Shown in pieces: positions 8,542 through 11,081 of a stretch of DNA of 64,000 nucleotides. Below the pieces are notes generated by a model. That model had not been told where the DNA came from. It made no database searches and saw nothing but the letters and a program-made list of their open reading frames with translations. Made by a program: the position numbers and the translations under genes. The stretch spans positions 1-64,000 of the forward strand of contig NZ_JACHHK010000004.1 of NCBI RefSeq assembly GCF_014202755.1. The letters are read 5' to 3'. Numbering within the stretch: the first letter of the stretch is position 1; every line of letters starts with the position of its first letter. The stretch comes from Catenisphaera adipataccumulans (GTDB lineage Bacteria > Bacillota_I > Bacilli_A > Erysipelotrichales > Erysipelotrichaceae).

Positions 8542-8964
8542 ATGGAATATAAAAAATTTGATTCTGTTTACGTGGTCCGGATCGACCGCGGTGAAGAAGT
8601 AATGGAACAGTTAAAAAAATTTGCGGAGGCCGAAGCCATTCAGACGGCAAAGATCGAAGGGCTGGGTGCAGCCGATCATGTCGAAATGGGATTGTATGAT
8701 GTCGGCAAACAAGCGTATGAATCGCATACGTTTGATCAGCCGATGGAAATTTCACAAATCAACGGCAGCATCACCCGTGCCGGCGGCGAACCGTATTTTC
8801 ATCTGCATATCAATGTTTGTGATGAGAAACAAATCAGTTACGGCGGCCATTTGAATGCCTGCCGGATCTCGGGGACCTGTGAACTGTTTGTGACGGTGAT
8901 CGACGGTTGTGTCGGCCGTCAAAAAGACCCAAAGGGAACCGGACTGAACGTGTTTCAATTTTAA
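8542..8964 (+). CDS. PPC/DUF296 domain protein
   Basis: A single PPC (DUF296) domain of 140 residues. Visible landmarks are the KIEGLGAADHVEMGLYD strand, YFHLHINVCD and the conserved GGHL near residue 103, a candidate metal site. Family members form trimers and some bind DNA in plants; bacterial roles are poorly known. It follows nrdD by 8 bases with its own AGGAG, so it is probably the last gene of the nrd operon. Its terminator hairpin has been split by the IS element downstream. Confidence 0.85.
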   Translation: MEYKKFDSVYVVRIDRGEEVMEQLKKFAEAEAIQTAKIEGLGAADHVEMGLYDVGKQAYESHTFDQPMEISQINGSITRAGGEPYFHLHINVCDEKQISYGGHLNACRISGTCELFVTVIDGCVGRQKDPKGTGLNVFQF

Positions 8965-8967
8965 AAA

Positions 8968-8983
8968 AGACCGGCTGCTAATA
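8968..8983 (+). terminator. Left half of a terminator hairpin split by an IS element
   Basis: ACCGGCTGC (8970-8978 region) is the left stem; its partner GCAGCCGGT and the T-run lie at 10261-10273 beyond the IS. Removing the IS and one AATA duplication restores ACCGGCTGC-TAATAT-GCAGCCGGT, a compact nine-pair hairpin with flanking A- and T-runs. Confidence 0.75.
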
Positions 8984-9015
8984 TGGGGCGAACCCCAAAA
9001 GTTGGACAAAATAAG

Positions 9016-9693
9016 TTATCTAGATTTTAAGGCTTGATTTCTTGCTTCGCAAGGAGTCAGGCCTTTTAATCTGACCTGGATCCTTTCTGTATTGTAATAG
9101 GTGATGTATTCTTCCATCGCTGCTTTCAGTTCCTCCAGGCTCTTAAATTCATATTCATGTCCATAGAACATCTCGGTCTTCATCTTTCCAAAGAAATTCT
9201 CCATCACACAGTTATCCAGGCAATTGCCTTTTCGTGACATGGACTGTATGATTCCATGCTCCTTCAAGATGGCTCGATACTGCTTCATTTGATATTGCCA
9301 TCCCTGATCACTATGTAAGATCAAAGCATCGAATTTCGTATGACCAGCGAATGCCTGCTCAAGCATATCAACCGTCTGTTTAAAGTCAGCACTTGATGAA
9401 ATATTGTATGAAATGATCGTATGATCATAGAGATCCAGGATCGGTGAAAGATAGAGCTTGCCGGCCGCAATGTGGAATTCGGATACATCCGTCGCCCAGA
9501 TCTGGTTGCTTCTCTCGGTATTAAAGTCACGAACATAAACTATTGTATGATCTTCTTCATCCACCTTTGGATGGAGCAGACGATTCGATACTGTCTCATT
9601 GAAATTCCCTCTATAAGATCTATATTTGGCACGCGGTGTGATACCGTAAAGGTCCATTTTCTTCATCAGGCGTTTCACCGTCTTATGATTCAC
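9016..9693 (-). CDS. IS3-family transposase OrfB, N-terminally shortened
   Basis: rve/DDE integrase core: WATDVSEF supplies the first Asp, ILHSDQGWQYQ the second and NCLDNCVMENFFGKMKTE the Glu, and the C-terminal YYNTERIQ...GLTPCEARNQA is typical of the IS150-like group. The reading frame opens at GTG 9693; upstream in the same frame KGRYGYRRIVLQLQRDGFHV is readable without a start. The family usually has about 40 more residues (helix-turn-helix linker) between VVTEL and KGRYGYRR; here the two motifs are directly joined and in different frames, suggesting a deletion. Normally it is made as a frameshift fusion with OrfA. Confidence 0.8.
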   Translation of the reverse strand: MNHKTVKRLMKKMDLYGITPRAKYRSYRGNFNETVSNRLLHPKVDEEDHTIVYVRDFNTERSNQIWATDVSEFHIAAGKLYLSPILDLYDHTIISYNISSSADFKQTVDMLEQAFAGHTKFDALILHSDQGWQYQMKQYRAILKEHGIIQSMSRKGNCLDNCVMENFFGKMKTEMFYGHEYEFKSLEELKAAMEEYITYYNTERIQVRLKGLTPCEARNQALKSR

Positions 9694-9760
9694 ATGAAAA
9701 CCGTCTCTCTGAAGCTGCAGTACGATCCGGCGATAGCCATATCGCCCTTTAGTTCGGTCA

Positions 9761-10166
9761 CTACTCCCGCGATTTCTTCTTTTCCCGGTTCTCTTTTACC
9801 GTAACCAAAGCATTTAATTTTTTTAAGTATGCGTTTTGTATCGTAAGAATCTCGTTCTGCCTGCGAAGATCTGCAATTTCTTTCTGCAGGGCTTCGTTCT
9901 TCTGAGGAAGATCCTTCGGTTTCTTCTTTGCCATGGGTTTTCCTGCCTTTCTTCTTTTCAATAACATTATACCCGTTGGCGATATATTCTTTCACCCATC
10001 GTGGTAAAGTTCCCTGATTGGAAAGGCCAAGATCCAATGATACGTCTCTCATGGATTCATGTCCGGCAAGTACACGTTCGATCGCTGCTTTTTTGAATTT
10101 TGGTGAATAGTAGGTCCAAGAATGTCGGATCTGTTCAATGCCCCAGCGGTCTGCTAAATGAACCAT
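9761..10166 (-). pseudogene. IS3-family OrfA, frameshifted
   Basis: The first part (from 10166: MVHLADRWGIEQIRHSW, then YSPKFKKAAIERVLAGHESMRDVSLDLGLSNQG) is the helix-turn-helix half. After VIEKKKGRK the reading frame goes off, while the +1 frame (9967-9761) carries the expected KPMAKKKPKDLPQKNEALQ and the leucine-zipper region ending LKKLNALV. One surplus A in the AAAA of AGGAAAACCC at about 9940 would explain the shift. A run TTAAAAAAATT near 9820 is in the right place for the programmed -1 slippage into OrfB. Confidence 0.7.
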
Positions 10167-10247
10167 TTATTGTATATTTCTGCTTTTGTCTCATATAAAT
10201 ATTTCATAAAGAAAAACCCCTCCAGTTGGTCGTCCAACTTTTGGGGT

Positions 10248-11036
10248 TCATTTCAAATATGCAGCCGGTTTTTCCATTGTGATCATTTGAAAATTTTCCG
10301 GAAATTCAATGTCTTCTTCCGGCTGATTGCAGTAAATCGTGTCAAACTCGTCCAGCGCACAGAAGCGGCAGGAGCCGAGAACATTCAGTTTCGATGCATC
10401 GATCAATAAAGAAGAATGACGGGAATTCTTCATAGCAGCGATCTTGATATCGCGGGTCTCCAATTCAGCGGTATAAGCCAGATTGTTGGCGATATCCAGA
10501 CCGGCACAGCCGACAAAGCATTTATCAAAAAAGAAATCTTGGATCTGCCGAATGGCCGATGTGCCGACGCTCATCGCATACTTTGGTGCATAGCGGCCGC
10601 CGACCACAAATAAATTGCAGGCGGAATTTTCCACGATCCGGGTCGGTACCAGATGATTGTGAGTCACGATAGTGACTGGTTTTTGTTTGATGTAGTCGAT
10701 CAAGTACATCAGGGAAGTGCCGCCGTCAATAAAGATACAATCGCCGTCCTGTACTTCCTGCGCCGCTGCCTGACAGACACGTCGTTTTTCATCCGCGTGC
10801 AGCCGGAATCGACGCTGCATAAATACTTCTTTATCCGGTGTCAGCAGGGCACCTGGATTGACTGGAATGGCACCGCCGTTGATCCGTTTCAGTTTGCCTT
10901 GCTGCTCCAGTTCATGCAGGTCCCGGCGGATGGTCGCTTCTGAAACCTGATATGAACGGACCAGTTCATTGGTATACAAAATGTGATCGGATTGCAGCTG
11001 GGCAATCAATCGGTTTTTTCGTTCTTTTCCCGTCAT
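10248..11036 (-). CDS. DeoR/GlpR-family transcriptional regulator
   Basis: An N-terminal DeoR winged helix (KNRLIAQLQSDHILYTNELVRSYQVSEATIRRDLHELEQQGKL) is followed by the sugar-phosphate-binding DeoRC domain with the DGGTS motif. Such proteins usually repress sugar catabolic genes until a phosphorylated sugar binds. I use ATG 11036, downstream of AAGGGCG, rather than the earlier in-frame start at 11081 that would overlap the promoter. The last two codons and stop (TTG AAA TGA) come from the adjacent IS: without the insertion the protein would end two residues earlier at TAG. Targets are unknown; the nearest divergent gene is the flavoredoxin-rubredoxin gene. Confidence 0.88.
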   Translation of the reverse strand: MTGKERKNRLIAQLQSDHILYTNELVRSYQVSEATIRRDLHELEQQGKLKRINGGAIPVNPGALLTPDKEVFMQRRFRLHADEKRRVCQAAAQEVQDGDCIFIDGGTSLMYLIDYIKQKPVTIVTHNHLVPTRIVENSACNLFVVGGRYAPKYAMSVGTSAIRQIQDFFFDKCFVGCAGLDIANNLAYTAELETRDIKIAAMKNSRHSSLLIDASKLNVLGSCRFCALDEFDTIYCNQPEEDIEFPENFQMITMEKPAAYLK

Positions 11037-11052
11037 AAATACGCCCTTGTTT

Positions 11053-11081
11053 ATCATATCGGATTCTGAATAAAATATCAA
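11053..11081 (-). promoter_or_regulatory. Sigma-A promoter of the deoR-type gene
   Basis: Read on the minus strand: TTGATA, a 17-base spacer and TATGAT, about 17 bases before the start codon. This placement also argues against the longer 11081 start. Confidence 0.8.

Follow-up and report, generated by a model that had tools for sequence, protein, structure and literature searches.

IS1272 and TnSha1 target hairpins regardless of primary sequence, and many of these hairpins have been shown to be terminators; insertion is into the stem, deletes the stem-loop bluntly and generates no TSD (PMC4923244). Within the IS3 family, IS1397, ISKpn1 and ISPsy8 insert specifically into REP palindromes (PMC1525189), and group IIC (class C) introns use intrinsic-terminator motifs as neutral insertion sites (PMC4424553). 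The initial annotation of the locus described here stated that some IS families are known to use terminator loops as safe targets; this comes close to the published record, in which IS1272 enters terminator stems with deletion (PMC4923244) and IS1397 enters REP (PMC1525189). Our literature search, which reached few subscription journals and worked without ISfinder, returned no description of terminator-loop targeting or of inward terminators for IS3-family elements.

In the window (the whole stretch of DNA analysed, 64,000 nt), an IS3-family element of the IS150 group occupies positions 8984–10255, with its ends reading TG...CA and its transposase on the minus strand. The element splits a predicted terminator hairpin, the arms of which, ACCGGCTGC at 8970–8978 and GCAGCCGGT at 10261–10269 (plus strand), form nine of nine pairs and are bordered by AAAAAAG at the left and TTTTT at the right. 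Across 8970–10269 the order is ACCGGCTGC, T, AATA, the IS (TGGGGCGAACCCC...GGGGTTCATTTCA), AATA, T and GCAGCCGGT, the two AATA copies (8980–8983 and 10256–10259, plus strand) being the TSD, and both flanks together with the IRs make up a single 42-nt inverted repeat. In the reconstructed site the insertion centre coincides exactly with the dyad (offset 0), and the stem score is 25.6 (p about 0.0005 relative to 28,902 background positions). The perfect nine-pair hairpin with A- and T-runs and the IS length of 1,272 bp, both given in the initial annotation, were confirmed, as was its placing of the terminator between two convergent genes. These are a PCC-domain (PF03479) ORF on the plus strand (8542–8964), whose stop codon lies just ahead of the hairpin, and a DeoR-family regulator ORF on the minus strand (10248–11081). 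The original deoR stop codon, TAG, lay in the hairpin loop of the reconstructed site (GCA TAT TAG); in the occupied allele a stop supplied by the IS follows two codons later (TTG AAA TGA), and only Leu-Lys is added to the protein. An Rfam search of the region found no family.

Besides decayed ends, the host genome holds one other full copy, L008 (G000:C1, 1,517 bp), which matches the IS3-type DDE (rve) transposase model NCBIfam NF033516 (1.8e-84, score 284, cutoff 160); the window copy itself matches Pfam rve and rve_2. The elements carry the IS3-family hallmarks of TG...CA ends, imperfect terminal IRs and a TSD of 3–5 bp, and IS150 and ISKpn8 nest inside our set of 50 OrfBs in a tree that is rooted at the midpoint only and includes OrfBs of no other IS3 subgroup. 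Compared with L008, the window copy has lost 172 bp (junction 9751–9752, minus strand) and 73 bp (junction 10166–10167, minus strand), both at short direct repeats. Because the 73-bp loss disrupts the start of orfA and the 172-bp loss interrupts the frame before orfB, this copy is unable to encode a complete transposase, and the OrfB remnant (rve integrase core, 9016–9693, minus strand) has had its N-terminal side cut off by internal deletion. The window copy is a dead, passive remnant. With respect to the programmed frameshift that joins orfA and orfB in the IS3 family, the frames seen differ among copies: OrfB is a separate frame of about 318 aa in many relatives and part of a single long transposase frame of 484–493 aa in L008 (326–1792, minus strand), L100, L101 and L156. 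These four also contain a dual-coded segment, in which the +1 frame, and not the long transposase frame, gives the canonical coiled coil (MAKKKPKDLPQKNEALQKEIADLRRQNEILTIQNAYLKKL...).

Relatives were gathered by OrfB similarity, element ends were set only from the IR and TSD, and the stem test was applied to the 31 copies with an intact TSD of 3–5 bp. The stem score was GC-weighted, admitted larger loops and was compared with the same 28,902 background positions; it replaced a first version, restricted to small loops and weighting AT more heavily, that was confounded by poly-A/T tracts. The flanking arms exceeded the 95th percentile of the background (p<0.05) in 25 of the 31 copies and the 99th percentile (p<0.01) in 18, and when right flanks were permuted among copies the observed pairing sum was matched in 0 of 20,000 trials. 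Target arm sequences vary between sites and swapped arms do not pair. An A/T tract (5 or more in 7, on one or both strands) accompanies all 25 scoring hairpins compared with 26% of background hairpins, and tracts on both sides accompany 15 of the 25 compared with 6%. Judged by these signatures, the targets are predicted terminators, many of them bidirectional, rather than mere palindromes. L008, too, interrupts the loop of a terminator, AAAAAGCTGGC-AGAGAATTTT-GCCAGCTTTTT, and has TSD TTTT. The survey of other copies proposed in the initial annotation thus revealed a strong preference across the group, and the window site is not a one-off.

Dyads were searched in the reconstructed sites without requiring that the hairpin surround the insertion. 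In 22/31 copies no more than 3 nt separated the insertion centre from the dyad of the best-scoring hairpin nearby; in 16/31 this hairpin also scored at least 15, compared with 1.85% of positions in intergenic DNA (binomial p 4e-20). This p-value, like the others, assumes independent sites, which is only roughly true, as several copies share an element or a genome. Insertion sites fell within an ORF in 1 of 28 cases, compared with 229 of 280 random flank positions. About six of the 31 clean copies failed the stem test (L181, L170, L190, L191, L123 and L161), and most of these have terminator-like sequence nearby.

Separately, one element (L235) was found inserted into a palindrome made by the ends of another element (AGTGAACCCCAATAAT...ATTATTGGGGTTCACT). 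In genome G167 several copies (L182, L183, L185, L186 and L229) have identical flanks in common, and the element and its split terminator therefore seem to be carried within a larger repeated unit. Solo IS ends, found in G030 and G112 among other genomes, mostly lacked a second end and were left out; the exception was a 53-bp MITE (L196, G030:C1, about 256430) that has IS-related ends, TGTACCGACCCCC...GGTCGGTACA, and no transposase. This MITE (TSD TTA) interrupts the loop of a terminator, AAAAACCACCAG/CTGGTGGTTTTT; such a site for an element without a transposase of its own suggests that the specificity resides in a transposase acting in trans.

The initial annotation also proposed looking for an IS-free allele. 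For the sister site L122 of Massilimicrobiota this succeeded: four congeners (G043, G177, G174 and G182) carry an uninterrupted, IS-free hairpin of the GCAGATG-GAAA-CATCTGCTTTT type, with the same arms as the occupied site. Genome comparison for the window, L167 and L162 sites found no IS-free alleles.

Both ends of the window element carry a terminator-like hairpin that faces inward. At the PCC-facing end, 45–82 nt inside the IS, AAGGCTTGATTTCTTGC-TTC-GCAAGGAGTCAGGCCTT followed by TTAAT (9029–9065, plus strand; −25.2 kcal/mol, z −4.8, synonymous-codon p 0.003) faces read-in from the PCC gene and overlaps the 3′ end of orfB in antisense orientation. At the deoR-facing end, 6–46 nt inside, GAACCCCAAAAGTTGG-ACGA-CCAACTGGAGGGGTTT followed by TTCTTT (10208–10249, minus strand; −19.4 kcal/mol, z −3.7) derives from the terminal inverted repeat, faces read-in from deoR and holds the orfA Shine-Dalgarno sequence GGAGGGG in its 3′ arm. 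The same arrangement recurs across elements, in which the first 45–60 nt on the tnp side form a strong hairpin and a U-run with the orfA start immediately after, and the ribosome-binding site (GGAGG/GGGG) lies within the 3′ arm. Among 28 distinct leaders the tnp-side arms fold far better with their own partners than when swapped (mean −22.0 compared with −13.0 kcal/mol; 0 of 20,000 permutations), and they therefore covary. A strict terminator scanner called inward terminators on the tnp side in 30/41 elements and on the far side in 34/41, compared with 7/41 outward. The far-side antisense hairpin in the last orfB codons beats same-protein synonymous-codon shuffles (p<=0.05) in 33/38 elements; it overlaps a conserved protein motif, and codon choice goes beyond what that motif needs. 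L214–L216 are without the coding hairpin and have a different hairpin followed by T7 in the non-coding 3′ end. Covariation and synonymous codon choice indicate that the inward hairpins at both ends are maintained. Transcription reading in would probably extend only some 45 and 85 nt into the IS, and the suggestion in the initial annotation that both neighbouring genes may now read into the element is probably wrong, as a hairpin and U-run at each end predict a stop.

Elsewhere in the host genome, a lone remnant of a tnp-side IS end (G000:C2:135139–135181; L011 1439–1482) lies just 3′ of the stop codon of a gene. It keeps a terminator-like fold (−16.2 kcal/mol) with TTTTTCTTT, and is possibly a domesticated terminator.

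What we observe, then, is a preference for terminators, centring on the dyad, a TSD within the loop and conserved inward hairpins. The best overall explanation, which on the sequence evidence we consider probable, is structure-directed target choice by IS150-group transposases combined with two-sided self-insulation. The transposase complex would recognize the inverted repeat of an intrinsic terminator, presumably as a hairpin or cruciform, and the IS ends would be joined across the loop with a stagger of 3–4 bp, which would place the TSD in the loop and leave half a terminator on each side. The IS would then make up for the broken terminator with the hairpins seen at its own ends. In a transcript arriving from outside, the terminal repeat on the tnp side would fold into its terminator-like hairpin, the 3′ arm of which includes the ribosome-binding site of orfA, and the far-side hairpin, antisense to the last codons of orfB, would face the opposite neighbour. 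With read-in ended at both ends, the flanking genes would keep near-original 3′ ends; the transposase would be shielded from read-through, and tnp may be expressed only from internal starts or the circle junction.

The transposase might instead read a feature of the duplex, such as an A-tract, a GC-rich centre, a T-tract, a bend or a short consensus, and not a hairpin or cruciform. The tracts at all 25 scoring targets fit such a reading, and the right-flank consensus N3-YGAGGC of E. coli IS150 indicates that base-specific contacts exist in the group; however, arm sequences vary by site while own-arm pairing is kept in the swap test, and insertion tracks the dyad and not a tract. We regard duplex reading as rather unlikely. 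Transcription-coupled targeting, in which the strand-transfer complex would use a paused RNA polymerase, an R-loop or a single-stranded bubble at the terminator, would account for targets that go beyond palindromes in always having tracts (25/25), but it sits poorly with the L235 insertion into a palindrome of other element ends and with the L106 and L192 insertions in hairpins with weak T-runs, and its probability is low. That insertion is random and only copies in harmless, terminator-rich 3′ intergenic gaps persist is improbable: nearly all sites are indeed intergenic and terminators do occur in such gaps, yet avoiding genes does not place an insertion on the dyad, nor does it call for one within 3 nt of it, which answers this objection, and the excess holds against intergenic positions alone (16/31 compared with 1.85%). 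An origin of the hairpin by chance, or as an artefact of AT-richness at the window site alone, can be dismissed, for although poly-A/T flanks by themselves lift pairing scores (the swapped-flank maximum is high), the GC-weighted scores, the permutation, the intergenic background and the IS-free alleles of the sister site all speak against it.

If structure-directed targeting with self-insulation is correct, it would explain how a large and widespread IS group persists in compact bacterial genomes: landing at terminator dyads would harm no gene, and the element's own ends would restore termination. The dyad rule would offer a sequence-based guide to terminator-directed integration, and hairpin recognition by an IS3-family transposase would become directly testable. 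For annotation, genes adjoining such elements would probably retain their 3′ ends.

Elements in terminator loops have OrfB identities to L008 down to 39% (L214–L215), and their hosts include Erysipelotrichales, Oscillospiraceae, a Mollicutes MAG and Succinivibrionaceae. Plasmid copies, one in Fusobacterium and one in Streptococcus equinus, are also in terminator-like hairpins; a scan of viral contigs found no relatives. The elements resemble the IS150 group (IS150, ISKpn8 and ISEnfa3) in the DDE rve transposase, TG...CA ends, GAACCCC-type IR and TSD of 3–4 bp. E. coli IS150 itself differs. Copies of it and of Klebsiella ISKpn8 (L246–L263, L236 and L266) occur for the most part at hok, mok and ibs loci; their right flank reads N3-YGAGGC, and some 20–27 nt to the left there is a GCCYC motif. 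The sampled copies of both are at short imperfect inverted repeats and mostly fail the stem test. Sampled E. coli IS150 flanks rarely passed the terminator-stem test, in which the arms were compared without joining the flanks, and the tnp-side hairpin is weak and without a U-run. Because these flanks and this hairpin mostly fail, the trait is not uniform in the group. We hypothesize that terminator-loop targeting extends to the whole IS150 group. More tentatively, and with slightly less than an even chance of being right, loop targeting and inward end terminators may be an ancestral, co-adapted strategy of the group, whereby the element's own pair replaces the host terminator and the insertion is silent and neutral; the hok-type clustering in E. 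coli would then be a specialized derivative, and decayed ends would persist as domesticated terminators.

Group IIC introns share insertion at terminator motifs (PMC4424553), but they are RNA-based retroelements that insert after the motif and do not split its loop. IS1397, ISKpn1 and ISPsy8 share IS3-family membership and palindromic DNA targets (PMC1525189); whereas their target is the repeated REP of one host group, the targets here are terminators of varied sequence, and a REP/PU-type target does not fit sites that differ in sequence and whose swapped arms remain unpaired. IS1272 and TnSha1 are alike in using hairpin or terminator targets without sequence specificity (PMC4923244); here, in contrast, the element enters the loop, makes a TSD of 3–4 bp and leaves both arms in place, and the IS-free alleles of the L122 site have the same arms, all unlike stem targeting of the IS1272 type. 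Targeting of terminators and palindromes is itself known; what seems to be a new variant is its loop-centred form in the IS150 group, paired with predicted self-insulation on both sides.
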